Made by a program: the position numbers and the translations under genes. Below are positions 837 to 22,589 of a stretch of 22,589 nt of DNA, one piece after another. Below the pieces are notes generated by a model. That model saw nothing but the letters and a program-made list of their open reading frames with translations. It did not search any database and was not told where the DNA came from. The DNA lies in IMG/VR virus record IMGVR_UViG_3300031787_000901, positions 1 to 22,589 of that record; one strand, written 5' to 3'. The DNA is from a virus. Position 1 is the first letter of the stretch, and every line of letters starts with the position of its first letter.

Positions 837-868
837 CAAAGTTACACAATTTTTCTTATAGAATCAAC
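837..868 (-). promoter_or_regulatory. Bacteroidota-type promoter for the 191-aa gene
   Basis: On the minus strand TTG (867-865) lies 20 nt upstream of TAACTTTG (844-837), matching the Bacteroides -33 (TTTG/TTG) and -7 (TAnnTTTG) boxes. Only four bases separate the -7 box from the ATG, so the transcript would have almost no leader. The site sits across the 3' end of the 3,410-residue gene. Confidence 0.55.
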
Positions 869-3800
869 CCATCTGTATTAGCCAATCCTATATTAATCAT
901 TTTTTGTATCTCTTCAGGAGTAAATAGATTGCGCTTCTGCATTTCAATGAGATAATCTTTTTCTCTTGAATTTCTGTACATTAACATATACTCATTCTTT
1001 GCCTTTATCATTTCATCTTGATATTGATTGAATATATTTACTATTTTAGATTTTGCAGTTTCTATATCTCCTTTTTCAACATTGGTTTGAACATCTATCA
1101 AAACATCTTTGAATTGCTGACCATATTTTGCAAAAGCACTTTGGAAATAATCTCCCCTCTTTTTCAATTCTTGACGATACAAATCATTTGGTAATTGATA
1201 ATCAAATCCTTTGTACACATTAGGAGCATCATCTCCACCCAAAGTCATTTCTTTTATGTAAGTGAAATTATTTTTCATTGGGTTTGAAATTATGCCAAAC
1301 ATACCGCTAGTTTTACCAGTTGCAGTCCACTCATAATCTCTTCCAGTCATCTGCTGATAGATTAAAGCCAAGTTAACCATACCGCTATGTACTTCCATAG
1401 ACTCTCTATACTTCTGTATTTCTTTCTGCTGTTGTTTTACTGGAGAAGAAAAACTTCTAAATGCGATAGGATCGAAAATTGCTTGGAAATACGCTCCCGC
1501 AGTTCCAGGCTCAGCCAAGGTAACTTTGTAGCCTAAATCTTCACCAAATGGTCCGATTGCAGCATCGTAAAATTCATTGCGAGTTTCCTCATTAAACGAA
1601 ATATTGCGATTTAATTTCTGAACTACACGCAAACCAATCGGACCCCAAAAAGCTGGCCAATCAGGTTTTTCTGCTCTAGTTACAATATCGTTGGCACTCT
1701 GAACAAATTCTGCGTTACCTTTAGACATAAATGAGAAGAAAGATGGGAAGAAAACAGCCATAGAAGTACTTAATGTGCCGGAAGCAAAGTTCTCCCAAGC
1801 TTGCTTACTAGAATCAGGATTCTTTAAATCAGTAGCAACTTGACCAAGACGAGCTAAACCTGAGAACATAGGCAAATCTTCAATACCAGAACTCAAAGAA
1901 GTTGACAACATTAGAGTTAAAGCATTTTTTTGCTCGTTGAATATTTGCATAACATTATCGTTTTCTTGTTCCCTCTGTTTATTATACACACTTCCCCATG
2001 TATTAAGTGCATAACCTAAGAATCCAGCATTTCTTGTATTAAGAATAACATCTGTTTCCTTATATCCACCCCTACGAGCTAAGAAATTAGATGGCATACC
2101 AGCCCTCATGTATTCCCAATGTATAGTAGCATTATATAAACCACCTCTGAGACCGTATTTCTTGAGTGCTTTTTCTTTTTCCGGATCGTCTCCACCGATA
2201 AGAATTGCTCCTGCTTTTACAGCAGACATTGCAAAACCATATATTGCTACACTTGTTACTGTTTGTGCAGCGTCATAAGTGGCCTGTCTTTTTGCAAAGA
2301 ACAAGTCAATCTTTGCTTTTTCGTAGTCTCTTTTACTCTTTTCACTCTTCAATTTAACACCGATTGGATATTCTTTGTTAAATTGATTCCATTTGTATTG
2401 ATAAATACCTTCAGAAACAATGTACTTAGCAAAAGCTGCACCGGGAACAACCTTCATAATTGCTGAGCCTAAGAAGTTCACAGGAACTTTTGTGAAAGGC
2501 ATAAGAGTAAATAATCCTACATCTAACAATTGCAAAGTATTCTTTCTGAGACCCTTTGCAGAAAATTGTCTTTTTATTTCGCTACCGAAGGTAGGACCGC
2601 CTATTTCTACACGATTTTCTTGGTACAATCCACGTATCTTTTTGCGGAGAGAGCCTCTGCCTAAAGATATAGCACCGGAAATCATATTATTTGCCAATAA
2701 AGTTCTCTTCAGACCTTCTGTTTCAAAGCGAGCATATAACTCAGCATCAGCATAAAGAATTTGACTCATTGCCCGGAGTGCATTCTGATCTAAATTTCCA
2801 TTGGCATCTGTCAACATTGAATCAAAAACACCGTTTTGAAATCTAGTACCTTGAATGTTTTGGAAGTAGTCAATCATTGCTCTTTGTGCAGCCATGTAAC
2901 CGAAGGCAATATCACCACCATAAGCCATGGCACGACCAGTAATTTCCGCAGCGATTGGGCCTCCGGTATTGAGTAATAACCATGGATTAGCACGAACACC
3001 TGCTAAAACTGGTCCTGTACCTAATGTCCATGCCAAACTACGAGCCAAAGTATAAGTCTTACCATCTCTGAGTTCAATAGTTCCATCCTTGAGTTTTGTC
3101 AAGGTTAAATCAAAAGCATCGGCTTGTTCTTCAGGTGTCATTGAACTCAAGTCTTTACCTGTGGTTTTATTAACAAAGGCTTTTACGAAGTTATATGCCC
3201 ACTGAGCGTCTTTGAAGAAGTTAACTTGAGCCAAGTTATCGTAGTATCTATTTAAACCTCTATTGGTATCCAATACACCGTACTTGGCGTTTCTGTTCAT
3301 ATCAAACCACATACGGTCTGATGTAAGTTTTCTAGCCATCTGCCAATTAGATATACTCAAGGTATTTCCTTTTATTCCACTTCCAAAGAAATCTCTGAGT
3401 TTCTGTATTGATCTGGCAGCAAAATTAGTACTCCATATATTGTTTTCTATGTTTGCTACAAAACTCAATATTGTAGTACTAATATTCAACAAAGCTCTTG
3501 CAGATCCGGATGTTACTCGCTCATTCCAAAATATAGGCTTCCTTGCTTCTAAGAATTGTGCTATTTTTATAGTCGCTATACCGACTGCTTTTTCTGAGTC
3601 CCAAAACGCTTCGTATGCCTGATCACTCCAATCTTTTTCTAGTGCTTCACGCTTGGCTTTATTATCTTTCTGAGCAGCTTTGAAATCATTAATTAAAGCC
3701 TCTAATGTTTTTCTTTGATTTTCAGTAAGAGCCACACCAGCTCTAGCTAATTGTTTTTCAATCATGCCCAGTTGATTGGTCTCATTGAAGAAACGTGCTA

Positions 3801-6800
3801 GCTGTAGGATACGACCAGCTTGACTAAACAATTCCGAAGATATATTGAATGCGTGACTTATTGCTTCAGGAGTATATAGTTTATCACCAAATTGGCCATT
3901 AGCAAGAGATTGAGTCCAATCAGCTGCTTTTTCTAACATACCTCTGTCATTTGCAAATTGTTTAACACCCTCGCTCAAAGCGATTGCAATCTGATCAAAG
4001 CCGTTTGATTTCAAGTAATCTAAGAAAAACTCGATAGCAACAGCACTATCTACAAGACCAATACCGGTATTACGAACAATGTCTGCTACTTCTGTTGCCT
4101 TCTGTGTTACTTTTAAGTTTTGGGCCTCAGCCTCTAATTCATCTAAGAAATCTGCCGGATACTCAGTGCTTCTATTCAGAGCATTTTGTACTGTCTGCCT
4201 ATAATCAGCTCCGAAAATATCAATTAAGTCTTGAGGCGACAAGAAATCCATATCTCTAGCAGCAGTAAATATTTCAAGATTGCTATAACCCTGATCAATC
4301 AAATCACCATATATGGCCTCAACATTTCCAAGATTATTATTGATTTCTTGTTTAATCAATTCCTGACGATCTGAAAATGCTGTGCCGACCTTATCCATGG
4401 TATTGATAGCGATATTTGATTGTGCTTGCTTTAATGCAGTCTCATCAAAATCATATAGGCCGATTGCTTCTTTAATTCTTCTAGGAGTATAACCTTTTTC
4501 AACTAGCCCGGTGTAAGCAGCAACTTTATCTCCATTGGTTTGGTTTATTATTGCATCATACTCTGGCCTGATCTGGGTAAAGTCTAACTGTGATTTGCTC
4601 TTGAATTGTGGAGCAGTTTCAACATTTTTGGTAATGATAACACCACTTTTTCCAAAGGTATTATTTTTAACTACTGTTGCTTGATCGCCTAAAAGACCTT
4701 GAACGTAATCTACCAATTCATTTGCATCAAAGCCTTTTTGGAATACTTCTACAGTTTCTCCACCTTGTCTACGAGTAATAATCAAACTCTTTTCTTCCGG
4801 ACCCGGAGTAGCATTTTTAGCACCATTAACATCACCAACCCAACCTCTTGTACTAATAACTGCTTTTCCACCCGGCTTTAATTTATCAAATATGTCTATA
4901 ACAATAGCATCACGTATATCTTTTGGAACTACATTCAATACATTTAGAGAGACAATGGCATCGTACTTTTTATTAATTTGATCAGAACTTGTAAATGTTG
5001 CAATTTCTTTTCCTTGCCATCTTTCAGGATTCGGCTCGAATGAATCTACTTTCCGACCTAATGTATTAGACATAGCATCTGTTCCGAGCCCCAAACCTGC
5101 ACCATAATCCAATACATCTCCTTTTATATCCGCAATCAAATTAGCAGCCTTTACATAAGAACCAGTAGTTGTAGCAACTTGAGTTGTACCACTAGACTTC
5201 TCAGAGCGAACTGCTTGAGATTTGGACATAAAATTGTCAATATTTTTAGCTCTTTCAATAACATCAGCAGTTTTAGTTTCAGCAATTTCTTGCTTAGGTT
5301 GTGCTCCTATTAGAACATTCTCATTATTTCTATTGCTAACATTGTCAATTCCTTGTTTAAATTCTTCTGTAGTTGTACCATATATATCACCCATTGATCC
5401 ATCAACTTGAATATCTGGTGTTGTCAGTACAGATAAATCACCGGCTTTAAGTTTTTCAAGTGAAAGCTGATTTGAATTTACTTTATTAACTAATGTATTA
5501 GACGCAGCAGAATATGTAGAATCTTCTTTTTGTTTTACACCTAAGTGTCCAAACAAATTCTTTTCATATATCCAAAGAATAGCTTGAACATCAGATACTG
5601 ATAATTTTTCTCCGGTTTCTGTAAATACTTTATCTCTTGCTTCTTCGAAAGCTTTTTTAGTAAAGCTTCTAAAATCTTTAGCATATTTAGCTTTATTTTC
5701 AACACCTGATTCAATACCTTCTGTTATCTCATTTACAACACCTTCTGCTTTTGCCCATATTTGACTTCCTTTTCTATAAGGCTTCAATAATTCATTGCGT
5801 TTTTCTTTCGGCAAGTTTTTAAATTCTCCTTTTCCAGTTAATATTGCATTGAATAATTTTGCGTGTTCTTGAGCTAATGATATAGCATCGGAATATGAAA
5901 CACCTTCTATTTTATTGTCTCTTTTAAAATCTTCCATTTCTTTTTCAGAAACTTTAGACCTCATATCTCCCCTATATCTATAAATTGTTCTGATACACCA
6001 TCTGTCAATTGTTGGTGTACCATCTAATCCAGATAAATTAGAATAGAATGCTCCTATTTTTGGTCCAAATATCAAAACAGACATTGGTAATACTTCAGAA
6101 CTATTCCACTCTGGATCAGTAGCTAAATTTAATTTTTTTGCTTCGGCATAACTTTTAACACCAAGTTGAGTTAATAATTTTTCTTGTAGATTTGAAATTG
6201 TATCTATTTGTTGTAAGAATTCAGCAAGTTTTACCGAATCGCCATTGAATTTTGTTAAGAGATTATTATATCTATCAACTCCAGCAGCAATTGCACTAGC
6301 TCCTTTTCCAGTTCCTACATTATTGGGAACTTTTCCGGTTTTTCTAAATTCCTCTATACCATATATAACTCGTGTTAAATTAGTATATACATCAGTAGAA
6401 TTAGATGCAACGGCTATAATCGCTGTTGCTACTTCTTTAATAGCAGGATTCTTTGTAATTTCTTCATCTAGTTGAGACAAAATATCTAAAGCTTTTCCGT
6501 AATCTTCTGTATACCATCCCTTACCAGAATTAGAGCCAAATTCAGTCAAGGCGAATATTATTTCATCTTTGGCATAATCAGAAACAACATTCACTACTTC
6601 ATCTGAAAAATCTGTTATATCAAACTTTTTGTGTACTTTTTCATAATACTTATTCATTGCTGCTGCAATGTCATAGTTTGTCACTTTTGGTTTTCCAGCT
6701 TTAGTAGTAGTTCCAATATTTATTCCTAACTTTTCTAATACGCCATTGAATGCTTCTATTGTCTGCGATTTAGAACTTAATTCTGTTGGTTTTATTTCTT

Positions 6801-9800
6801 GCTCGACTTGAGTTTCTGTTGGTACTCCACCTTCTTCAGGAGCAGTTTCTGCCGGAGCAACTACTTCTTCTGTAGCAGTAACTTCAGCAGCCGGTTGGGT
6901 CTCGGTAGCTTGAATTTTCTTCTGTACGCCTTGAGCAATTTGTCCAGTACGTAGAGTTTCTACCATGCCGTTTACAAAGTCTACATAATCAGCACGAGTT
7001 TTTATCTCATCAAATATTTGTACTTGACCCCCGGTTACAAAAGCAACAAAGTCTGCTATTACTTTGGCAATCTTCTCCAAAGTAGCAATTTCCATCTGCT
7101 TCTCGTTCTGCTTTAAAGTAGCAGCTAATTCAACCAAGAACTCTTCTCCTTTTTCGTTGTTATTATATTTGTCAACCAAGGCTTCTATTTGTCTCAAACT
7201 CTCATTCCTAATTGTACCTTGGATTGTTTTTTTCAATCTGGTACGCATATCATTGAACAGTTTAGGATCTGAGCCCAAAGCCCTAAGCAGAATACCATGG
7301 CCAACTTCGTGCGCCAAGGTAGTTGTTGTAGCCTTATCTAAGTTTATTTGTACCTCAACACTATAAGTACCATCTTCATTTTTTCTATATGAAAAATTAC
7401 CGGCACTGCTAGCTTTACCTCCTACTTGTTGCATAGCAGCAACATAATCATTATTGTTCAAGAATACTATTTTAGCACCGGGAGCAATTTCATTCAAGGC
7501 ACGTTGCAGTGTGGATGCTTCACCTAAAATAGTATCGACATTTTCTTGACCACTTTGGCGTGCTTTTTCTGCGATTGCATTAAGTTTCTCTTGTTCTTCA
7601 ATAGTGGCTCCAGTTTCTCTTGCTGTAGTTTCAACAGCAGCAAGCTGTTTTGCTCCTTTATCGGTTGCTTCTTTAGCTTGTGTTTCCTTTTGCTTTTTAG
7701 TCTCTTCTACAATTTTATTGATATTACCATCTGTACTTTCAACTTTTGTTCCTTCCTCAGTTATGTCATCTAAAAATTTCGGATCTTTTATAAAAGACTG
7801 CATTTGAGTATTATCGACAACCATGCTACTTCCATTACTATATGTAATTTTAGTCAGTTGCAGCGGTTTTCCTGCTGCTACATCTGCAAGTTTTTTATCG
7901 ATAGCCTTTACTCTTTCTTCTAATAACTTCTTGAAATTTTCATCTTTTGCTTCAGCTATTTTTCTTTCTACATCTAATTTTTCAGTAGCAAGAGTAATAT
8001 AATATTTTTGAGAGTCCTGATCTTTGACTAATTCCTGAGCGTTTGGAAGTTCATTGACAACCGCTTGGAATGCTGTTCTCATGTCCTTCAATTCTGCATC
8101 GCTAATTAAGTTCTTACGATACAAGTATTCAGGAATAATCATTACTGATTTAGAACCTATTACTTGAGCAATATCAGTAACATTTTGAACCATACCTAAT
8201 CTACCCAAGGTTGCCATAACTCTATTTTTAGCTTGTTCTGTTTGTACTTCTCTATATTGTTCTAATCCGGCAGAAGTACCACCCAATACGAAAATAGTTG
8301 GAGTAACATCTATGGCAACATTTTTACCATTTTGCATAGCCCAAGTAGCAAAATCAACAGGATTTGGAGTACTATTTTTATAACTCAAATATTGCTGTCC
8401 CATTTCAACACCTGTTTCTTCGATTTGTTCTAAGCCCGTACTTACGCCAAACTTTAAACCAAATGATTTCAACCCTAGTCCTGGTGCATATTTACTCAAG
8501 AAACCTTTGGTGAAAGGCAGCATAGAAATAGTGTATAAGGGAGACATTAATATTTGCGTTTTAAGCGTCTCAGCTGCTGCATCTTGTGCTTGTTCAATAG
8601 ATCCAGTTCTTTCATATACGAGTCTATGATTTTCTGCTACCTGATCTATCGTTTCTTGGGCAAATAGTATACCTCCTGCTATATAAGGATTTCCTGATAG
8701 TGCGCCAGCAGCAATACTAGTTACTAAATTTGGGGCTTGCTGAACAATATTCTGTGCTATGTTTTTAAAGGTTTCCGTACTGAAAAAACCTTCTTTTTCT
8801 AAAACTTCACTAAATGGTTTTATATTTACTTGATTTTTTATCTGAAAATAATCCATAAACTTTAATACATCACCTATTGGATTATCTTCGTATCCTACGG
8901 CAGCATTAATAGATTGTATAGCATTTCCAAACATTCTAGAAGTAGTAGATTGAATAATATCACCAAGTCTCCATCCTAAAGCATCACTATTTGCTTGCTC
9001 CTCTTTTGACAATTTATCGAACTCGTTTTTATAAGCTTCTCTATATTTTCTATAAGCAAGAGTGGTCAATTTACCATTTTCATCTTTATCAGATATAATA
9101 CCATATTTCTTTTTTATCTGACTAAGTTGTGCTTCACCATCTTGTTGAACTTTAGCTCTATAATTTTGTAAAACAGCATTAGCTTCTTTGTTTAGAGCAT
9201 TAAGACGTTCTTCATATGCTGTAGCATTTTCATCCACTTTTTTCAAAAAGTTCTGATACTCCATATTTTGGAGTTCAGGACTCATCATGGGATTGCTCTG
9301 TATTTTTAATTTGTAAGCATCGTAAGCTAATTGATTACTTTGCTCAGCTTCTTTGGCAAAACTAGTAGCTTTTTCTTTGGTATTCGCAACTAAGTGTATA
9401 TTGTAATCATTTATTAATTTCTCTGCATTTTTACCTAAGTCTTTAATCTCGGCATCAATTTGGGTATTTACCTTTATAACATCGTCTTTCAAAAACTTTT
9501 TGTCTGCCATCTTTCTTTCAACAAGGTCAGACTCTAACTTTTGTGTTGCAGAAATTCCGGCTAAACGAAGAACACGAGGTTTTATAATGTTAATAATTTG
9601 ATCTTTGGTATACTCATCTAAGCCAGCTGCTGCCCTTTTATTGTTAAAAGTTTTCACCAGGGCTTGTGTTACAGGGCCATTGGGGGATTTTAAATATTTT
9701 TCAACTTCTTGATCTAAAAATATAGGATTGACTTTGACATTTCCGGCTTCATCAAGCATATAAAATCCTTCTTTATCATCTCCTGGACCACCCCACAATA

Positions 9801-11088
9801 ATTTACGATTAGGGTTTCTTACAGTTTCAGTAATATCTTTAAATGTCTTGGTTTCCGGGTCCATAACCTTTCTGGTTACTTTTGTAATTGCCGGAGCATC
9901 AAAGAAATTTTCAGGCAGATTTGACTGAATTTTAGCTATTATATTGTTAACATCGCCTTGAAAAATTTTATCTACTTTCTTTTCCTGATCGGCTAATCGT
10001 GTTGACAAAAACTCCGGTGTTTCAAATTCATTTTCTGCTGTTGGTAATCCAAGAAGCACATTTCGTCTATTCTCCTCTGTCTCGCCAAAAATTTTATCTG
10101 TTCCGGCAGACATTTCAGAAAACTGATAATTTGCAGGATTGGTAAAACGATCATAGGCATTTAGATAATCAACAACACCCAAATCCTTTTCAGTTGTGTT
10201 TGGAGCTTTGTTTAAATCATCTAATTGCTGTTCTATTGTTTTAGGCTTAAACGGACCTTCTTTTACAGGAAGAAAAGTTATTGGTTTTTCCTCCGGCTTT
10301 TTAAATGCTATTTTTGCTCCTTGAGCACTTATATCAAGAGTTAAATTTCTTTTGGCTAAATTTGTTTTCGCTTGGTTTATAACAAAATCAAAGTCAGATT
10401 TAATTTCTGCATCCGGCTTAAGTTCTTTATAAGCAGATACAAATTCATTTAACTTGGTTTCAAGAATTTTTGGATCAGTTGAAATTGTCTTAGATAACTT
10501 TTCAATTTCGTTATATAATGGTAAGTATTTATACTGATGGATTCCCTTACCTTCTTTGTTCCATACTTTTGTACCAGTGCTTACAATAATATCTGAAGGT
10601 TTCTTTCCGGGAGGCTTTGTTGTCTGGGGCCCAACGCCTGCACCTTTACCATAACCTATCGGCTCTATAAAAGGAGATAAAGATACTGTTTCTTCTAATC
10701 CTGGTATAGTTGTAGTTGTTTCAACTACTTCTGCGCCTTTCTCAGGTGCAACTGTAGTTGTAGTGACAGCTTCTACAGCTTTATTGTCTTGTGGAACTCC
10801 CATGATGGGTTGTTCCACCACTTCTGTAGTTTCAGTCTCAGTCTGAATCGGTCCAGCCGAAAGAGATGGAGAAGAAGAACTTTCTTCTGCGAGGTTTTGG
10901 CTGCTCGCTTGGTCTTTTTTTTTTAGATATTCTGAAGCTGATTTGATATCAAAGATATCTTCCATCGTTTTGTCAGCAGTTGGATCACTTGCCAAATACT
11001 GTTCAAATTCTTCTTTATTGTCAAATAAGCTTTTGAATCTTTCGTCAGAAGACAGATTGCTGTAGAGGTCATCTAAATTTTCAGCCAT
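856..11088 (-). CDS. Giant large polyvalent protein: Zn-peptidase, HhH-GPD-like and methyltransferase domains (3410 aa)
   Basis: This single frame takes up almost half the window. Residues 60-145 are an acidic Ser/Thr/Glu/Pro linker. Charged coiled-coil-like stretches fill about 510-720. Hydrophobic helices lie near 780-850. A metallopeptidase motif LAHEVGHGIL has its ligands at H1260 and H1264, with a candidate third ligand at E1320. Residues 1443-1850 resemble HhH-GPD DNA glycosylases (TDV..N at 1565-1570, K1677, D1695, R1700). Residues 1975-2150 are a class I methyltransferase (VLDYGAGLGLGT at 1992-2003). The rest is helical, with hydrophobic stretches near 2854-2885 and 2940-2965. Large polyvalent proteins of phages are known to mix such enzyme domains and are thought to enter the host with the DNA. 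Lying directly after two internal-protein-like genes fits that role. No viral RNA polymerase motif was seen. The start MAENLDDLY follows an A-rich leader, nine bases after the previous stop. Confidence 0.85.
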   Translation of the reverse strand: MAENLDDLYSNLSSDERFKSLFDNKEEFEQYLASDPTADKTMEDIFDIKSASEYLKKKDQASSQNLAEESSSSPSLSAGPIQTETETTEVVEQPIMGVPQDNKAVEAVTTTTVAPEKGAEVVETTTTIPGLEETVSLSPFIEPIGYGKGAGVGPQTTKPPGKKPSDIIVSTGTKVWNKEGKGIHQYKYLPLYNEIEKLSKTISTDPKILETKLNEFVSAYKELKPDAEIKSDFDFVINQAKTNLAKRNLTLDISAQGAKIAFKKPEEKPITFLPVKEGPFKPKTIEQQLDDLNKAPNTTEKDLGVVDYLNAYDRFTNPANYQFSEMSAGTDKIFGETEENRRNVLLGLPTAENEFETPEFLSTRLADQEKKVDKIFQGDVNNIIAKIQSNLPENFFDAPAITKVTRKVMDPETKTFKDITETVRNPNRKLLWGGPGDDKEGFYMLDEAGNVKVNPIFLDQEVEKYLKSPNGPVTQALVKTFNNKRAAAGLDEYTKDQIINIIKPRVLRLAGISATQKLESDLVERKMADKKFLKDDVIKVNTQIDAEIKDLGKNAEKLINDYNIHLVANTKEKATSFAKEAEQSNQLAYDAYKLKIQSNPMMSPELQNMEYQNFLKKVDENATAYEERLNALNKEANAVLQNYRAKVQQDGEAQLSQIKKKYGIISDKDENGKLTTLAYRKYREAYKNEFDKLSKEEQANSDALGWRLGDIIQSTTSRMFGNAIQSINAAVGYEDNPIGDVLKFMDYFQIKNQVNIKPFSEVLEKEGFFSTETFKNIAQNIVQQAPNLVTSIAAGALSGNPYIAGGILFAQETIDQVAENHRLVYERTGSIEQAQDAAAETLKTQILMSPLYTISMLPFTKGFLSKYAPGLGLKSFGLKFGVSTGLEQIEETGVEMGQQYLSYKNSTPNPVDFATWAMQNGKNVAIDVTPTIFVLGGTSAGLEQYREVQTEQAKNRVMATLGRLGMVQNVTDIAQVIGSKSVMIIPEYLYRKNLISDAELKDMRTAFQAVVNELPNAQELVKDQDSQKYYITLATEKLDVERKIAEAKDENFKKLLEERVKAIDKKLADVAAGKPLQLTKITYSNGSSMVVDNTQMQSFIKDPKFLDDITEEGTKVESTDGNINKIVEETKKQKETQAKEATDKGAKQLAAVETTARETGATIEEQEKLNAIAEKARQSGQENVDTILGEASTLQRALNEIAPGAKIVFLNNNDYVAAMQQVGGKASSAGNFSYRKNEDGTYSVEVQINLDKATTTTLAHEVGHGILLRALGSDPKLFNDMRTRLKKTIQGTIRNESLRQIEALVDKYNNNEKGEEFLVELAATLKQNEKQMEIATLEKIAKVIADFVAFVTGGQVQIFDEIKTRADYVDFVNGMVETLRTGQIAQGVQKKIQATETQPAAEVTATEEVVAPAETAPEEGGVPTETQVEQEIKPTELSSKSQTIEAFNGVLEKLGINIGTTTKAGKPKVTNYDIAAAMNKYYEKVHKKFDITDFSDEVVNVVSDYAKDEIIFALTEFGSNSGKGWYTEDYGKALDILSQLDEEITKNPAIKEVATAIIAVASNSTDVYTNLTRVIYGIEEFRKTGKVPNNVGTGKGASAIAAGVDRYNNLLTKFNGDSVKLAEFLQQIDTISNLQEKLLTQLGVKSYAEAKKLNLATDPEWNSSEVLPMSVLIFGPKIGAFYSNLSGLDGTPTIDRWCIRTIYRYRGDMRSKVSEKEMEDFKRDNKIEGVSYSDAISLAQEHAKLFNAILTGKGEFKNLPKEKRNELLKPYRKGSQIWAKAEGVVNEITEGIESGVENKAKYAKDFRSFTKKAFEEARDKVFTETGEKLSVSDVQAILWIYEKNLFGHLGVKQKEDSTYSAASNTLVNKVNSNQLSLEKLKAGDLSVLTTPDIQVDGSMGDIYGTTTEEFKQGIDNVSNRNNENVLIGAQPKQEIAETKTADVIERAKNIDNFMSKSQAVRSEKSSGTTQVATTTGSYVKAANLIADIKGDVLDYGAGLGLGTDAMSNTLGRKVDSFEPNPERWQGKEIATFTSSDQINKKYDAIVSLNVLNVVPKDIRDAIVIDIFDKLKPGGKAVISTRGWVGDVNGAKNATPGPEEKSLIITRRQGGETVEVFQKGFDANELVDYVQGLLGDQATVVKNNTFGKSGVIITKNVETAPQFKSKSQLDFTQIRPEYDAIINQTNGDKVAAYTGLVEKGYTPRRIKEAIGLYDFDETALKQAQSNIAINTMDKVGTAFSDRQELIKQEINNNLGNVEAIYGDLIDQGYSNLEIFTAARDMDFLSPQDLIDIFGADYRQTVQNALNRSTEYPADFLDELEAEAQNLKVTQKATEVADIVRNTGIGLVDSAVAIEFFLDYLKSNGFDQIAIALSEGVKQFANDRGMLEKAADWTQSLANGQFGDKLYTPEAISHAFNISSELFSQAGRILQLARFFNETNQLGMIEKQLARAGVALTENQRKTLEALINDFKAAQKDNKAKREALEKDWSDQAYEAFWDSEKAVGIATIKIAQFLEARKPIFWNERVTSGSARALLNISTTILSFVANIENNIWSTNFAARSIQKLRDFFGSGIKGNTLSISNWQMARKLTSDRMWFDMNRNAKYGVLDTNRGLNRYYDNLAQVNFFKDAQWAYNFVKAFVNKTTGKDLSSMTPEEQADAFDLTLTKLKDGTIELRDGKTYTLARSLAWTLGTGPVLAGVRANPWLLLNTGGPIAAEITGRAMAYGGDIAFGYMAAQRAMIDYFQNIQGTRFQNGVFDSMLTDANGNLDQNALRAMSQILYADAELYARFETEGLKRTLLANNMISGAISLGRGSLRKKIRGLYQENRVEIGGPTFGSEIKRQFSAKGLRKNTLQLLDVGLFTLMPFTKVPVNFLGSAIMKVVPGAAFAKYIVSEGIYQYKWNQFNKEYPIGVKLKSEKSKRDYEKAKIDLFFAKRQATYDAAQTVTSVAIYGFAMSAVKAGAILIGGDDPEKEKALKKYGLRGGLYNATIHWEYMRAGMPSNFLARRGGYKETDVILNTRNAGFLGYALNTWGSVYNKQREQENDNVMQIFNEQKNALTLMLSTSLSSGIEDLPMFSGLARLGQVATDLKNPDSSKQAWENFASGTLSTSMAVFFPSFFSFMSKGNAEFVQSANDIVTRAEKPDWPAFWGPIGLRVVQKLNRNISFNEETRNEFYDAAIGPFGEDLGYKVTLAEPGTAGAYFQAIFDPIAFRSFSSPVKQQQKEIQKYRESMEVHSGMVNLALIYQQMTGRDYEWTATGKTSGMFGIISNPMKNNFTYIKEMTLGGDDAPNVYKGFDYQLPNDLYRQELKKRGDYFQSAFAKYGQQFKDVLIDVQTNVEKGDIETAKSKIVNIFNQYQDEMIKAKNEYMLMYRNSREKDYLIEMQKRNLFTPEEIQKMINIGLANTDGLIL
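4639..5166 (-). other. Class I SAM methyltransferase domain of the giant protein (residues ~1975-2150)
   Basis: Motif I is VLDYGAGLGLGT (1992-2003), and the acidic residue ending strand 2 is E2018 in VDSFEPNP. The motif IV region is YDAIVSLNVLNVVP (2042-2055), and motif VI is LKPGGKAVISTRG from 2070. A conserved-looking tail (FQKGFDANELVDYV) follows. There is no DPPY or NPPY at motif IV, so it is not a typical N6-adenine or N4-cytosine DNA methylase, and there is no PCQ motif of C5 enzymes. The substrate is unknown. Confidence 0.75.
5539..6762 (-). other. HhH-GPD (endonuclease III-like) domain of the giant protein (residues ~1443-1850)
   Basis: IIAVASNSTDVYTNLTRV (D1566) matches the SAQATDVSVN helix of E. 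coli endonuclease III. FGPKIGAFYSNL (K1677) matches the helix-hairpin-helix GRKTANVVLN. TPTIDRWCIR places Asp1695 18 residues after the Lys and Arg1700 five after the Asp, the same spacing as K120, D138 and the following Arg in endonuclease III. A closing helix around W1839 (AILWIYEKNL) parallels the last helix of that enzyme. Differences: the first hairpin Gly is replaced by Ile, there are about 35 extra residues before the hairpin and a long helical insert after the Asp, and no iron-sulphur cysteines are present. The match was made by eye from known motifs. Confidence 0.5.
7099..7521 (-). other. Metallopeptidase domain of the giant protein (residues ~1190-1330)
   Basis: The core is TTTLAHEVGHGILLRAL, an HExxH zinc motif (H1260, E1261, H1264) in a hydrophobic helix. 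It is preceded by a beta segment with a Gly-rich turn (GNFSYRKNEDGTYSVEVQI), the usual layout of gluzincin-type peptidases in polyvalent proteins. A later helix, GEEFLVELAATL, supplies E1320 as the likely third metal ligand. The substrate is unknown; it could act on the giant protein itself or on a host protein. Confidence 0.65.
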
Positions 11089-13608: not shown

Positions 13609-13640
13609 CAAATTTATACTTTTTTTACTGATTATACAAA
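13609..13640 (-). promoter_or_regulatory. Bacteroidota-type promoter for the ejection-type genes
   Basis: On the minus strand TTTG (13640-13637), a 20-nt spacer, then TAAATTTG (13616-13609) match both Bacteroides promoter boxes at the expected distance. The -7 box ends four bases before the ATG of the 317-residue gene. The upstream box lies inside the last codons of the tail nozzle gene. No terminator stands between the two genes, so read-through is also likely. Confidence 0.6.
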
Positions 13641-16600
13641 CGTGGACTCGGACGGAACTTAATTATAAAGTTTTTAATCTTCTGTCCACCACTAGATTCA
13701 AGGCTCATTTTTACTTTCAACCAATAACCCCACAAACGACTAGTGTCTGCATTATTGACCAAAGTTAAAGTAGTATCGTTCTTTATAGGACTATACCACA
13801 AATCTTCTCTCAATTCAAATTCGGTCTCATCCAAATTGGATTTATGATTCTTAGTAGTAAAATCTGTATTGAAAGGCATTTTATCTGAGTTAACTAAGAT
13901 AGCTTCAAAGTTTTTAATCAAATCGGCATCATAGTTCATTACTGCTGTGATATTAGGAGCCACAAAAGAACCATAGTAATCGGACTCAGGGCCTACATCA
14001 TGCAACCACAAATACTTCTGATCCAACGGATTTGGTGAGTAGTAAATATTATTATACCTCAAGAAAATATTGGGCCAATAAGAATGGAAAGAAACAAATC
14101 CATTTTTAAGTTCATCGTACACCAAGGTAAAACAATTTGTCACATATGAATCAGTACCAGGAACAATCTTAGTCCAATAGGTAGTCCAATTGGCTCCACT
14201 TTCTGGTCTATTCGTAGGATCACCTGTATGTGCTACTTTACATTTATACGCAAAGGGAAGTCCTGATGAATGATAAGTCATTGGAGATCCATAAACATAA
14301 TCACCCTCATCGAAAACTGTAGGTTCCCAATTAAAAATATTATCGTTATAACCTTTAAATGTAAAGATAGCTTCTGAGTATTTATCATTCCATACTCCGT
14401 GTATGCCTTCTCCTGTGAGGGGATGATATTTACCTATGACCCATTGTGTATTATTATTCAAGAAGCTAACAAAACCTCTATCGCTTATAACTCTTACACC
14501 ATCCTGACCAAAACGCATCAACTTTTTGTTTTGCTCATTGTACCAATACGCAGTATCTTTTCCGGTATTTGTCTTACCTTTAACAAATTGCCATTTTCCA
14601 AATAGACCGAGTGAGCTTATTTGCTGACCACGATTACTTAATATGCTACCGCTACCTACAACTACATCACTACCAGCTGAAGCGTTAGAATAAGTTGCAT
14701 CCCGGAAGTATTGTCTTTGGAAAGAGAATGGTTGCCAAGTATAAAAGTTATTATCGATTATATCGTGGTGGGTAATAGGCCCCAATGTTAAATCTAAATC
14801 AGCTACGTCTAAAGGTTGAAAAGCACGATAATTATCTTTCAAAGAACCAAGTACTTTTTTAGCAGACCAACTTATTCTTGTTGGTAAAGAACCATCATAT
14901 GTACTATTTGGATCATAGCCCAATTCTATTATTGTTCCATCTTTAGGTGTATACCCATTATTGTATTCTTGTTGATTAGATACTTCTGGCCACTGTTCGC
15001 ACCAATATATAACTCCAGATGCCCATGAACCATTATTATATGTTCCACCGTTTGTTTTATCTGTCATTTGCGGAAAGACATTTCCGGGACCGCTGAAAGT
15101 ATTGTCGTGATCTAAAACATTGAACATTTGTGTATTCAATGAGTTTTGCGAATAAAAAGAAAATCCAATACCATAGCCCGACAAAGGATTATTCCATGTG
15201 TTCATTCTCAATAACATATGAGATTTTTGTGTGAATACATCTCCACCAAAAATTTTTATGTTATTAATTATGCCATTTTGTCCAGCAGTTAAATAAGTAA
15301 CATGACCAACAGATTGATAAACAGTCTGCTCTTTGTTTACAGGATATTTTTTATTTGCACCTAAATCTCTAAATATTTGTCCGTAATAATTTCCTATTTG
15401 ATTACCACTATAAGGAAAAGGTAAGCCTGCAACAGGAACTGTCAATTTAAAAACTTCAGCAGCTTGATAAGAACCACTAGCATCTTCTAATGAATAGCTT
15501 TCTCCATCCATAGCCCCTTCGTTTCCTGTATCTAAGCTGATGTGAGAAATCAATGAATAATTAACATAGTTATATGGAACAGCAATATGATTACCAAAAT
15601 ATCCTGATGTATCGCTATAAGAAGATGGATTGCTTCCTTGAGCTGAACCACGCAATTGTATTTCATTTGGTGTATTAAAAGGCAACAAAATTTTTAATAA
15701 ATCTGCTGAACTATATTGATAACCTTTTCCAAAATAAAAATCAGGCGAATAAAAGAAAAGTCTTTGTGTAGGAAATATTGGAACTCGTCCGGCACTCCAT
15801 AAATTTTCTATACCAGATGGTGTATAATATGGAGGCTTGGCCAAATTTCTTCCAACGAAAAAATACCCAGTTGCAATTACTTCCGGTATTCTTTCTGCAC
15901 GAACAAAACGATAACCTACAATTAAATCACGAATAGGAGTGTCTCCTAATCCGCTACCATCGGTATCTACGAGATAATCTAAATTTATATTGTGAAATTT
16001 TGGATAATATACTTTTGTTATTGTAGCTGTTGGATTTGTCAGATTAGGATCTATTTTTGCCAAACGCACAGTTCCTGTACCTACACTTACTAAAGCAACA
16101 ATCGCCTTTGTGCCATAATAATCACTTGTAACTTGAAAATTATTGGCAGTTGAATTAATAACAAAATATGTAGCATTCGAAGATAAACCAGCAAGTCCTG
16201 CTGTTATAGTAAAACGTATTTCATCACCATCTTCATAACCATGGTTATTGATAAGAATTCTATTGTTTATTAAATCAACACCACCTATAATTCTGTTTCT
16301 AATATCTCTTCTCGAAGAAGCTAAATCAATATTATAATCTAAATCGTCTATGCGAATATCATCAACCCAATAAGGAGCACTCCACTTACCTGTGTTTTTC
16401 CACTGAACCTGAATACCAAAACGATACGTATCGTTTATCATATATCCGGTATTATTCAAAACATTTTGCGGATCTTGATATTCTCCAAACTGATATGCCG
16501 GATTAGAATTTCTCGTTTGAACGCCTACATTTCCTATACCAGTTATATATTTTTGTGTAACAGAATGTGTTATCAGAGAAGCCCAATCAGTTAAATCATA

Positions 16601-18058
16601 ATCGATTTGTTCAGTCAAGTTGCTCATAGTCATTCTATTATCAAATATCTTCATCGTTTTTACGGTTAGATATTTAGATGTAATTGCGACTAGTTCATTT
16701 ATGGAAAGAGGTATATTTTCTTGACCGGTATTATTATGAACTACTTTTAATTCTGTATCTTGGTTATTAATATTAAAACGCTGAATTATTTTTGCGGAAA
16801 AAACATCTCCCTCATATTCTATTCCAACAAGCTCAAAATATTTATAAATGCCAGGTTGAAAATTTTTGACAATCATTTCAACTGATTTATCTGTTATTGT
16901 TCCAACAGAATCTCCTGCTATTCTCCAAGGATTACTTTTATTTTCAGAATAAATGTTAACTATTCCTGTTGGATATAGAAAATCTGTTGCTACTAAATCT
17001 TCTGTAAGAAAACGTCCTGTATATCTTTTGTTTCCGGCTAATACTTGTCCTTCTCCTTCGATAACTTGCAGTTCATCAATATATGCAGATGGATTACGAT
17101 AAAAGAAAGATGTTTCTTCATCAATTGTTTCTAATTCGTATTTTCCACCATTGTAAAACATAAATCCATCCAAAACCGTTATATTGTTATATTTCAAATA
17201 CATCGCTCTTGGCTTATTATTACCATCGGTCCAATAGAAATTTACCTGAGACCCAACTCTTTCAATTTCTGCTTCTACTCTTCGATCTTTCGATAGCCCT
17301 AGTTGTTTACTTCTAATTAGTCTTCGATATATATATTTTCCGCTTGAAAAACCACCAGCTTTTATGAGAACACCTATTTCGCTTACTTCAGATATAGTAG
17401 TGGCGACAGATCCTGCTAACCATATAAATGTAAATTCATCATCTAGTTGCTGAGAACCAACAACACTAAAACTACCAGGTGTAGCTACATATTCTTGTGC
17501 GAGTTTGAATTCACATATTTTTGCTGTTGTATTGTTTACGGTGAACACAAATTCAGTATCATCAGGAGTAGATACATTGAAATAATAAACATTTGGGGTT
17601 GCAAAAACCGAAAGCGGTCCGTATACAAAAGGTGTAGGATAGCCTGCATTGGATCCTAAGGCATCTAATATTGCTTGCAAAGCAGTAGCATATGCAGCAG
17701 GAACTAGTATGTTTAAAGATGCTCCGTTTGCAGTATAAGCATTACCGCTAGAATCCGTTAAAGTAATATTTCCAACATTTGCTGTTACAGCACCATCCAA
17801 AAGAGGATTCAAATCAAAATAAACCCGATATATCTTTGACTTGGCTGTGTAACCAGGAATATAATCAACACTATTACCTAAATCATCTGTTGCAATAATT
17901 ACATTCTTATTTCCCAATACAGACATAATACCGCCAAAGTTCTGATCACCAGTGTGACGATGGCGAATATCATTGGCATCAACATAGTTACCTTGGTTCA
18001 CATAAACCAATTCGGTATCTTTATCTAAATTTCCTGAAGGTGTTACTCTTACCTGCAT
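13625..18058 (-). CDS. Tail nozzle / muzzle-like (tail stabilisation) protein (1477 aa)
   Basis: The start, MQVRVTPSGNLDKDTELVYVNQGNYVDANDIRHR, has the layout of crAss-like tail stabilisation or muzzle proteins, in which an N-terminal segment reads like 'G.Y.DA.NIR'. Other recalled family marks are YWTDGNNKPRAM (about 276-287), YRFGIQVQWKNTGKWSAPYW with VDDIRI (about 540-565), VGYRFVRAERIPEV (about 713-726) and SPDFYFG (about 770). Length is also in the usual range. It is beta-rich throughout, without signal peptide or membrane segment. It would form the distal tube of a short tail. Two modules look inserted: residues 590-670 (NHGYEDGDEIRF, ATYFVINSTANNFQV) and residues 1244-1295 (FDEGDYVYG, YKCKVAHTGDP, NWTTYWTKI). 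The ATG overlaps the previous stop (TAATG). The family was recalled from memory, not searched. Confidence 0.75.
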   Translation of the reverse strand: MQVRVTPSGNLDKDTELVYVNQGNYVDANDIRHRHTGDQNFGGIMSVLGNKNVIIATDDLGNSVDYIPGYTAKSKIYRVYFDLNPLLDGAVTANVGNITLTDSSGNAYTANGASLNILVPAAYATALQAILDALGSNAGYPTPFVYGPLSVFATPNVYYFNVSTPDDTEFVFTVNNTTAKICEFKLAQEYVATPGSFSVVGSQQLDDEFTFIWLAGSVATTISEVSEIGVLIKAGGFSSGKYIYRRLIRSKQLGLSKDRRVEAEIERVGSQVNFYWTDGNNKPRAMYLKYNNITVLDGFMFYNGGKYELETIDEETSFFYRNPSAYIDELQVIEGEGQVLAGNKRYTGRFLTEDLVATDFLYPTGIVNIYSENKSNPWRIAGDSVGTITDKSVEMIVKNFQPGIYKYFELVGIEYEGDVFSAKIIQRFNINNQDTELKVVHNNTGQENIPLSINELVAITSKYLTVKTMKIFDNRMTMSNLTEQIDYDLTDWASLITHSVTQKYITGIGNVGVQTRNSNPAYQFGEYQDPQNVLNNTGYMINDTYRFGIQVQWKNTGKWSAPYWVDDIRIDDLDYNIDLASSRRDIRNRIIGGVDLINNRILINNHGYEDGDEIRFTITAGLAGLSSNATYFVINSTANNFQVTSDYYGTKAIVALVSVGTGTVRLAKIDPNLTNPTATITKVYYPKFHNINLDYLVDTDGSGLGDTPIRDLIVGYRFVRAERIPEVIATGYFFVGRNLAKPPYYTPSGIENLWSAGRVPIFPTQRLFFYSPDFYFGKGYQYSSADLLKILLPFNTPNEIQLRGSAQGSNPSSYSDTSGYFGNHIAVPYNYVNYSLISHISLDTGNEGAMDGESYSLEDASGSYQAAEVFKLTVPVAGLPFPYSGNQIGNYYGQIFRDLGANKKYPVNKEQTVYQSVGHVTYLTAGQNGIINNIKIFGGDVFTQKSHMLLRMNTWNNPLSGYGIGFSFYSQNSLNTQMFNVLDHDNTFSGPGNVFPQMTDKTNGGTYNNGSWASGVIYWCEQWPEVSNQQEYNNGYTPKDGTIIELGYDPNSTYDGSLPTRISWSAKKVLGSLKDNYRAFQPLDVADLDLTLGPITHHDIIDNNFYTWQPFSFQRQYFRDATYSNASAGSDVVVGSGSILSNRGQQISSLGLFGKWQFVKGKTNTGKDTAYWYNEQNKKLMRFGQDGVRVISDRGFVSFLNNNTQWVIGKYHPLTGEGIHGVWNDKYSEAIFTFKGYNDNIFNWEPTVFDEGDYVYGSPMTYHSSGLPFAYKCKVAHTGDPTNRPESGANWTTYWTKIVPGTDSYVTNCFTLVYDELKNGFVSFHSYWPNIFLRYNNIYYSPNPLDQKYLWLHDVGPESDYYGSFVAPNITAVMNYDADLIKNFEAILVNSDKMPFNTDFTTKNHKSNLDETEFELREDLWYSPIKNDTTLTLVNNADTSRLWGYWLKVKMSLESSGGQKIKNFIIKFRPSPRLYNQ

Positions 18059-18555
18059 TATACGTTAGCGAGTTTTTGTGTTTGGTATTCCCTTTGATAG
18101 TTCTGCATTACTCCCATACCGAAATCGTTGATATACCTACGAGTATATTTCCAACCGATATAAGCAACGAGCATACGCTCCCAATCATCAGGTATAATTA
18201 TATTATCGTCTTTGTCAGTATTTAATCCGTAATAATGAACAACAATTTTTGTTCCATCCGGAACATGAACAGCAGTATTGAAAACTATTGTGTCTCCTTG
18301 AATACAATAATCAGTATCTAGACAAAAGATTTGAGTTGTATTACACAAAGAAACATGAGTTATTCTAAACCAATTACTCGGTAAAGTTGCTTTTGAATCA
18401 GTTACCACCAAGTTTGCGGTCTTATGAATATACTTGTTCATTGTTTTATGAGACCGAATGGCTTGGTTGATAAGAACTTCAAACCACAGCGCATTGTTCT
18501 CATACGAACAATTTAATTCTTCTGCTGCTGCTGCTATAATATCTTCTATCTTCAT
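18058..18555 (-). CDS. Tail-tube ring / adaptor-like protein (165 aa)
   Basis: Residues 1-55 are helical (IEDIIAAAAEELNCSYENNALWFEVLINQAIRS, read in two parts), followed by a small beta domain (ATLPSNWFRITHV, YCIQGDTIVFNTAVH, GTKIVVHYYGL) and a final helix IIIPDDWERMLVAYIGW with a basic end (KYTRRYIND). This helix, beta insert, helix plan with a 'P..WERM..AYI.WKY.RR' end is the one I associate with short-tail tubular or P22 gp4-like adaptor proteins, which stack as a ring below the portal. Both ends overlap neighbours by one base (TAATG), so it is translated with the 209-residue protein and the tail nozzle. A connector role fits this context well; which ring it forms is not visible. Confidence 0.7.
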   Translation of the reverse strand: MKIEDIIAAAAEELNCSYENNALWFEVLINQAIRSHKTMNKYIHKTANLVVTDSKATLPSNWFRITHVSLCNTTQIFCLDTDYCIQGDTIVFNTAVHVPDGTKIVVHYYGLNTDKDDNIIIPDDWERMLVAYIGWKYTRRYINDFGMGVMQNYQREYQTQKLANV

Positions 18556-19184
18556 TATTTAGGAATATTGGTAATACCAGGCTCAGGTGGACGAGTAGTT
18601 TTTCTAAACAGATCTTGAGTTACCATTTGTACAATATCGTGTTTCAAGTTCTCATCCACCGGATAGTGGTCGGTATCTTTATTGAAATTCGGAATAGTTG
18701 TGGGATTGTTGAACATCGCACGAACCATAATATACTCCAATTTTGAGTTGTTATAGAACTGCAACACCAAACGATTCTGATCCAAGTGTTTGAAATCCCA
18801 CAGAATATCTTTCTTTCTCAAGAATATAGAATGGCGAGTCAAAGTGGTAAAGCCTTTCCTGATCCTTGTGAATGGCTTCAGACCATTGGCATGACCAACG
18901 TATACAAAACCATCATTCATTCCATCAGTGCTAATTACATTAGGGCACTCAAATGTTACAAACTCACAGTTCTTATCTCTATCTTCAAAAGAAATATCGA
19001 GAGTCTGAACCCAAGCATCATTGATAAATTTGCCCATTTTCTTGAGATATGCAGCAATCAAATGAGCTCTGGCAGCATGAATCTTAACTTCAATATATTC
19101 ATCGTCAAAACGAGTCTCATTGTAAGTCATACCACTTAACAAATCGCTTTTTATCTCGTCTACTATTTCGCCTAGGTAAATCAT
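18555..19184 (-). CDS. Probable tail/head-tail ring protein (209 aa)
   Basis: The product is 209 residues, helical at the N-terminus (LGEIVDEIKSDLLSG, YIEVKIHAARAHLIAAYLKK) with a beta-rich middle (VQTLDISFEDRD, FVTFECPNVI, RLVLQFYNNSKLEYIMVRAMF), and closes with a helix and a Pro-rich tail (LKHDIVQMVTQDLFRK, RPPEPGITNIPK). Helical ends around a beta core are usual in ring proteins of the podovirus connector. No enzyme motif or export signal is seen. It starts with an ATGA overlap to the 274-residue gene and ends with a TAATG overlap to the 165-residue gene, so the three are coupled and most likely made in matched amounts. The ring assignment rests mainly on this context and the fold pattern. 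Confidence 0.65.
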   Translation of the reverse strand: MIYLGEIVDEIKSDLLSGMTYNETRFDDEYIEVKIHAARAHLIAAYLKKMGKFINDAWVQTLDISFEDRDKNCEFVTFECPNVISTDGMNDGFVYVGHANGLKPFTRIRKGFTTLTRHSIFLRKKDILWDFKHLDQNRLVLQFYNNSKLEYIMVRAMFNNPTTIPNFNKDTDHYPVDENLKHDIVQMVTQDLFRKTTRPPEPGITNIPK

Positions 19185-21812: not shown

Positions 21813-22589
21813 TTAGATAGCGAATTCAATCAGACCCATTTTGTCTGCAACACAGTAAAGACCACAGTCAGAAAGAATGTGGAAGTCAACACCGTCAACA
21901 TCGCTAGTACCAAGAGATACCATCTGTCCACCGCTCAGAGCAGCTTTAATAGTTGAAGGATCACTGTTCTCAAGACCAATCATACCGGGAACGTAGTTGG
22001 CGATCAACTCGTCATTGTTGAAGTGGTATTTCTGAAGAGCAGCAATAGTTCCAGAACCATCAGCAGCAGGGATAGGAGTCATGTCGATGAAGTAGATAGA
22101 GTTGCTCATCTTAGGTTTTCCGTTGATAGCAGAAAGTTCACCACGGAACATTTCGTCATCAAGCAGAGCCCAACGAACAAATTCAATCTCGATGCCAGCG
22201 TAAGCATACTTCATAACGTTCAGACCGGTAACTGAAGTACCACCAAAGGTGTTGGCATTACCAGCATACTTGATGTAGTCACCGAGGATAGTCTGAAGAC
22301 GAGCCAAAGCAGCAGAACCCATAAGAGCTACGAGTTTACGTCCACCTTCAGCAGATACACGTACCATTTGCTCTAGGAAGTCGTTGAATACGCTCTGAGT
22401 CAGTTCAGCAGTCAGAGACAAGTAAGAACCACCGTTGTTGATGATAGACCAACGCAGACCACCGGTAGTGTAGTATTCGCCTTGAGGACCAATTTTGATA
22501 GCACGCTCAGAGAAGGCATATTTGTATTCCAACTGCTTAGCGAAAGCTTTCAAGGTAAGGTCATCATAGCTCCTCCACCAGAAATCGCC
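21813..22589 (-). CDS. Major capsid protein, C-terminal part (5' end outside window)
   Basis: The frame is open to the right edge: before the first possible start (a TTG at 22553) it reads GDFWWRSYDDLT, so the gene begins outside the window and 258 codons are seen. Its sequence (IKIGPQGEYYTTGGLRW, FLEQMVRVSAEGGRKLVALMG, LNVMKYAYAGIEIEFVRW) has the alternating beta and helix texture and the 'GIEIE...LLDDEM' segment near the end that I associate with HK97-fold major capsid proteins of podoviruses of Bacteroidota. Codon choice here favours C-ending and G-ending codons more than in the giant gene, in keeping with high expression. It is followed by a probable decoration protein and a terminator. 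The N-arm and E-loop are not in view, so the call rests on the C-terminal part and context. Confidence 0.65.
   Translation of the reverse strand, partial: GDFWWRSYDDLTLKAFAKQLEYKYAFSERAIKIGPQGEYYTTGGLRWSIINNGGSYLSLTAELTQSVFNDFLEQMVRVSAEGGRKLVALMGSAALARLQTILGDYIKYAGNANTFGGTSVTGLNVMKYAYAGIEIEFVRWALLDDEMFRGELSAINGKPKMSNSIYFIDMTPIPAADGSGTIAALQKYHFNNDELIANYVPGMIGLENSDPSTIKAALSGGQMVSLGTSDVDGVDFHILSDCGLYCVADKMGLIEFAI

Follow-up and report, generated by a model that had tools for sequence, protein, structure and literature searches.

An Ogg-type HhH-GPD domain, akin to DUF7178, in a giant phage polyvalent protein: a putative virion-delivered DNA glycosylase

Locus and gene content

We analyzed the IMG/VR virus record IMGVR_UViG_3300031787_000901 over its whole length of 22,589 bases (hereafter, the window). 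An earlier note on this DNA had proposed an endonuclease III-like domain in a giant phage protein, and its coordinates are right: residues 1443–1850 correspond to positions 5539–6762 on the minus strand of a 3410-aa open reading frame (ORF). The features considered here are as follows.

856..11088, minus strand: ORF of the giant polyvalent-type protein, 3410 aa
7297..7311, minus strand: HEVGH zincin-like motif, residues 1260–1264 (sequence)
5539..6762, minus strand: predicted HhH-GPD (Ogg-like/DUF7178-like) domain, residues 1443–1850 (AlphaFold2, VIA-align, Pfam DUF7178)
6511..6519, minus strand: G1524-W1525-Y1526, invariant in 75/75 relatives; WY in 25/25 DUF7178 proteins (as GxxWY)
6379..6414, minus strand: start of the S1562..N1570 helix, the STDV..N of the earlier note (alignment)
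6034..6084, minus strand: helix-hairpin-helix, residues 1669–1685, with hairpin G1675-P1676 (AlphaFold2 model helices 227–232 and 234–243)
6058..6060, minus strand: K1677, aligned with the Schiff-base lysine, MjOgg K129 or Nth K120 (conservation and hhalign register)
5998..6006, minus strand: D1695-R1696-W1697, the Asp aligned with MjOgg D147 or Nth D138 (conservation)
5695..5970, minus strand: family-specific helical insert, approximately residues 1707–1798 (model helices 273–282, 290–309 and 319–339; variable in the alignment)
5572..5586, minus strand: Q1835-xxx-W1839, closing helix (conservation; the DUF7178–Ogg2 profile alignment reaches the Trp)
4849..5124, minus strand: SAM-dependent methyltransferase-like domain, residues 1989–2080 (Pfam Methyltransf_23, E = 1.1e-6, 28.9 bits, cut-off 27)
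13625..18058, minus strand: crAss-like muzzle protein gene, upstream (Pfam crAss_MUZ, E = 2.2e-34)
18058..19184, minus strand: two tail ring protein genes (Pfam SU10_adaptor/CrAss_Ring_1 and CrAss_Ring_2)
21813–22589, upstream of the giant gene: SU10/crAss-like capsid fragment

Because of the crAss_MUZ, ring protein and capsid genes, we assign the contig to a crAss-like or SU10-like podophage. The methyltransferase-like domain directly follows the glycosylase-like domain; the relative L002 gave no Pfam match to it. Residues 484–565 (9394–9639) weakly matched phrog_16845, a family without an assigned function (E = 7e-4, 20.8 bits).

Conservation and selection

Relatives of the domain were found in IMG/VR in 360 contigs with one alignment and in 52 with a more divergent one, the two sets overlapping. 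Conservation was scored over 75 non-redundant relatives, most of them 24–30% identical to the window sequence, and over 25 diverse viral-contig proteins of the phage family DUF7178 (Pfam PF23802, phrog_3842). K1677, D1695 and R1700 were invariant (75/75), and the Lys and the Asp were each retained in 25/25 DUF7178 proteins. Q1835, A1836 and W1839 were likewise present in all 75 relatives, with a matching Q-A-x-x-W in all 25 DUF7178 proteins, as were S1562 and N1570, whose counterparts (S in 25/25, N in 23/25) keep the same spacing of 8 in DUF7178. Further invariant positions (75/75) were G1675, G1679, F1681, N1684, L1685, G1687, T1693, W1697, R1704, G1707, R1807, D1833, E1842 and L1845. Members of the window's group and of the L022 group have a Lys–Asp distance of 18 residues, and those of the GPKIGNGFF group one of 19.

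Between the window copy and its 78% identical relative L001, dN/dS was 0.085 (dS already high), and between L004 and L005 it was 0.04–0.05; the domain is therefore under strong purifying selection. The window copy has a slightly acidic pI of 6.1, against a family median of 8.8. Relatives also occurred in bacterial genome contigs, namely L169, L176 (Polynucleobacter), L171, L178 and others, which probably represent prophages, or phage contigs that were binned into MAGs.

Predicted fold

The AlphaFold2 model of the domain, built on the 75 aligned sequences, had a mean pLDDT of 90.3 and a pTM of 0.87. In model numbering, a helix (227–232), a Gly-Pro hairpin (233–234), a second helix with the lysine at its N-terminus (234–243), a loop, Asp253 and a further helix (254–263) follow one another, and this modeled order of helix-hairpin-helix, loop and Asp is the HhH-GPD arrangement. 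The topology thus agrees with the two helical halves joined by a helix-hairpin-helix that the earlier note had expected of a structure prediction, with both catalytic residues conserved in all relatives.

When VIA-align 2 was run on the top 1000 chains from Foldseek, the best match of the window model was MjOgg (3knt, Z = 10.6, 188 residues aligned; 3fhf, Z = 10.2). The queuine salvage enzyme QNG1 ranked second, with Z = 10.2 and more aligned residues than MjOgg (236), and other matches were TmOgg (9.8), NTHL1 (9.4), MagIII (9.1) and AGOG (7.9); the first match outside the superfamily was a coiled coil (5.7). These Z values alone would not settle the fold, since helical models may, as the program warns, reach them by chance, and Foldseek found no significant match to the window model in the PDB. 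For the DUF7178 model (pLDDT 93.9), VIA-align gave MjOgg (Z = 12.3), TmOgg (11.9), SsOgg (11.7) and DNA-bound endonuclease III (9.8), and all of the best 50 matches listed were HhH-GPD enzymes, QNG1 not being among them; Foldseek gave only sub-significant PDB matches, to AGOG and OGG1 (probabilities 0.98 and 0.82). On these models, residues 1443–1850 very probably adopt the HhH-GPD fold.

Relationship to DUF7178 and Ogg2

Scanned alone, the segment matched Pfam DUF7178 over the Lys–Asp stretch with 29.2 bits (cut-off 27), and the same match scored 19.1 bits in the whole protein. DUF7178 was its only Pfam match up to E = 5; the PF00730 (HhH-GPD) model can miss remote members. Profile comparison with hhalign connected the window family to the 25 DUF7178 proteins (E = 2e-7; reversed control 0.28) and DUF7178 to three Ogg2 enzymes (E = 1.7e-6; reversed control 0.82), the latter in a register that places the Lys on MjOgg K129, the Asp on D147 and the final Trp on W198 (MjOgg residue letters were verified against PDB 3fhf). 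When the DUF7178 profile was compared with all PDB sequences, the top five were Ogg2 enzymes (E = 0.004–0.09), and against an Nth/MutY set it gave E = 7.6e-4. The bridge through DUF7178 is needed because direct comparisons of the window-family profile with Nth/MutY (E = 0.2) and Ogg2 (E = 0.35) were not significant. Neither the segment by itself nor alignments A1 and A2 retrieved anything relevant when searched against PDB sequences. In the phylum of the genome at locus L177, a Pfam Ogg-HhH search gave one weak match, in a protein whose sequence looks like that of a normal Nth.

Judged by profile comparison, the closest relatives of the domain are the phage family DUF7178 and, through it, the Ogg2 8-oxoguanine glycosylases/AP lyases. 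The particular kinship to endonuclease III that had been claimed for it therefore gives way to DUF7178 and Ogg2. The further suggestion of a distant or new branch stands as to distance; the branch is not isolated, because the small phage proteins of the Pfam family DUF7178 are sometimes labeled glycosylase already and because relatives occur in hundreds of viral contigs. Among phages, gp88 of Mycobacterium phage Kimona is a full-length DUF7178 protein (247 bits), and 164 phage records encode relatives, some annotated as glycosylase or N-glycosylase. In three Gordonia phage records (OR159663, MK376959 and KU998247), the DUF7178 match extends over a pair of neighboring gene annotations, a hint that the gene is split or frameshifted or that the annotation is in error.

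The HhH-GPD superfamily also holds phage base-modifying transferases of the alpha-glutamyl/putrescinyl-thymine pyrophosphorylase kind, and a domain of this sort, exchanging a group on a phage-modified base, would suit a protein that carries a methyltransferase-like domain as well. We consider such a transferase highly improbable here, as DUF7178 was the sole Pfam family matched by the segment and the profile kinship leads to Ogg2.

Catalytic residues and base pocket

K1677, D1695, R1700 and W1839 lie where the earlier note had placed them, and the distances from Lys to Asp (18 residues) and from Asp to Arg (5) are those of K120, D138 and R143 in E. coli Nth (MG1655 record). This spacing is weak evidence alone, because the pattern occurs three times in the 3410-aa ORF (0.6 expected), and we dropped it as a stand-alone argument; the match is real because all three residues are invariant in the 75 relatives. 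As the earlier note observed, the hairpin lacks its first Gly, I1673 standing where Nth has G116; the second is retained (G1675, corresponding to Nth G118). The earlier claim of an HhH-GPD domain that keeps both catalytic residues inside a giant protein is thus borne out by the model, the structure matches and the conservation of Lys and Asp.

The shared spacing, together with the DUF7178 profile match to Nth/MutY and the structure matches to NTHL1 and, for DUF7178, to DNA-bound endonuclease III, could be read as endonuclease III proper, acting on oxidised pyrimidines. We rejected membership of that family, and hold it to be scarcely credible, because its four [4Fe-4S] cysteines are absent (the domain has a single Cys, C1698); the Ogg2 matches are also stronger in both profile and structure, and Q-xxx-W marks the pocket as OGG-type.

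In hOGG1, Phe319 stacks on 8-oxoguanine and Gln315 bonds its N1, and in MjOgg these places are taken by Trp198 and Asp194 (PMC3397491). W1839 and Q1835 align at the same places, which in the known enzymes hold the flipped guanine. Two residues after the catalytic Asp (D+2), the window family has Trp (W1697), Nth and MjOgg have His, and DUF7178 has W or H in 25/25 proteins; at this position, hOGG1 His270 and the corresponding CacOGG1 Trp243 contact the phosphate of the target nucleotide (PMC3397491). The Q-xxx-W pocket and the Trp or His at D+2 therefore suggest a DNA glycosylase whose target base is guanine-like, and the domain probably acts on DNA bases. The C-terminal lysine of Ogg2 has no counterpart, as the chain continues for more than 1500 residues past W1839; an 8-oxoguanine sensor built on the carboxylate of a C-terminal Lys is impossible in a mid-protein domain.

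The closest rival reading is an N-glycosidase like QNG1 (DUF2419, queuosine monophosphate salvage) that acts on nucleotides or nucleosides. Such an enzyme has the same HhH-GPD core and Lys/Asp pair, and its target would be a modified nucleotide in free form, such as a defence signal or a modified guanine nucleotide. QNG1 ranked second among the structures, and its homologues also carry D-xxx-W near the C-terminus, but hhalign found no match of the window-family and DUF7178 profiles to QNG1 homologues (E = 0.11 and 0.27, against 1.7e-6 for DUF7178 and Ogg2), and Pfam Q_salvage was absent. In addition, QNG1 homologues lack His or Trp at D+2 (LTMFADNLVPHV), the position from which OGGs contact the phosphate of their target (PMC3397491). 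We regard this explanation as improbable, and the same can be said of a worn or structural domain that has lost catalysis and serves just to bind DNA, within the virion or at ejection. Such a role is conceivable given the placement in a giant virion-type protein and the altered hairpin with its missing first Gly, but DNA binding alone would not require the invariance of the Lys, the Asp and the pocket Gln and Trp across 75 relatives and 25 DUF7178 proteins.

Polyvalent and virion context

The giant protein combines a glycosylase-like domain, a methyltransferase-like domain and an HEVGH motif within 3410 aa, as polyvalent proteins do. Its homologues are mostly 2000–3500 aa long and carry ART-PolyVal, LPD22 and LPD38 domains. 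Among viral structures, ART-PolyVal and polyvalent-domain proteins (E down to 2.6e-13) rank with the best matches. The glycosylase-like domain recurs in phage polyvalent proteins, where ART-PolyVal, LPD22 and LPD38 are its fusion partners. The phage records L007–L009 show the same gene order: the giant gene follows a gene for a lysozyme, a peptidase or a hypothetical protein, and a tail fiber gene comes after it in L009. One of these records (L007, PQ492659.1) is Limnohabitans phage DC33, a circular record of 39 kb with a 3125-aa polyvalent-type gene; it is filed under Inoviridae, a taxonomy line that looks wrong.

The muzzle gene of phicrAss001 is presumably gp44. In that phage, the genes after the muzzle gene encode the virion cargo proteins gp45, gp46, gp47, gp49 and gp50 (PMC10172136), and injection together with the phage genome has been predicted for polyvalent proteins (Iyer et al. 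2017, PMC5512222). By analogy, we think it quite probable that the giant protein is delivered with the virion.

Proposed function and significance

Residues 1443–1850 are best explained as an Ogg-type HhH-GPD member, kin to DUF7178 and embedded in a polyvalent, ejected phage protein, that is, as a virion-delivered glycosylase (probability about 0.68). The domain is most likely a DNA glycosylase for a modified purine and possibly an AP lyase. The giant protein would be packaged into the virion and leave it along with the phage DNA, and the HEVGH zincin-like motif may help to free its domains. The glycosylase domain would then grip DNA through its helix-hairpin-helix and flip a modified purine into the pocket, most likely a guanine that is oxidised or modified in another way; there, W1839 would stack on the base and Q1835 would hydrogen-bond it. 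D1695 and K1677 would break the N-glycosidic bond, and K1677 could nick the abasic site. The likeliest use would be the cleaning or processing of the phage genome on entry, ahead of its replication, and the alternative would be action on host or rival DNA. In a weapon or counter-defence role, which we consider unlikely, the enzyme would enter with the genome and remove modified guanine (oxidised or 7-deaza, for instance) from the DNA of the host, a prophage or a rival, or erase marks on the incoming DNA that host defence systems read.

The HhH-GPD superfamily is already known, and small DUF7178 proteins have been labeled glycosylase by annotators. Our literature search found no paper on DUF7178, including any that likens it to Ogg2 and describes a conserved OGG base pocket, and none on a polyvalent protein with HhH-GPD or with a fused DUF7178-like domain; in a jumbo-phage paper that combines a polyvalent protein and a glycosylase, the glycosylase is T4 endonuclease V. 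A likely function is thereby gained for DUF7178, a widespread phage family of unknown function, and base excision joins the activities that polyvalent proteins may carry into the cell. If true, phages bring a repair or DNA-attacking glycosylase as protein, ahead of any gene expression. The prediction points to four residues (K1677, D1695, Q1835 and W1839) and to a cultured relative, Limnohabitans phage DC33.

Comparison with known systems

Polyvalent proteins of phages (PMC5512222) share the giant multidomain build, the zincin motif and the methyltransferase, and relatives share ART-PolyVal, LPD22 and LPD38, whereas DNA glycosylase domains go unmentioned in the main text of that study (0 occurrences of glycosylase or base excision). 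QNG1 resembles the window domain in structure (Z = 10.2 over 236 residues) and differs in having no profile match and in its Lys–Asp spacing and D+2 residue. E. coli Nth has the same HhH-GPD fold and K120/D138/R143 spacing, but the phage domain lacks the [4Fe-4S] cysteines and its profile match to Nth is weaker.

Closer likenesses are seen among OGG enzymes. Equivalents of hOGG1 K249 and D268 are present (18 or 19 apart in the phage families), and Gln315-xxx-Phe319 corresponds to Q1835-xxx-W1839, with Trp for Phe, whereas no A domain was identified in the phage domain. The Ogg2 enzymes (MjOgg, 3fhf/3knt; TmOgg, 3n0u; SsOgg, 3fhg) share the fold, the K129/D147 equivalents 18 apart, D-R-x and the Trp198 equivalent at approximately 8–11% identity over the structural alignment; unlike them, the window domain has Gln for Asp194, an altered hairpin and no C-terminal lysine sensor. 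DUF7178 shares collinear WY, S..N, K..D-x-W/H and QAxxW motifs. It is a stand-alone protein of approximately 190 aa, half the size, whereas the window form lies inside a 3410-aa protein and adds an insert after the catalytic-Asp helix and an extra segment before the helix-hairpin-helix.
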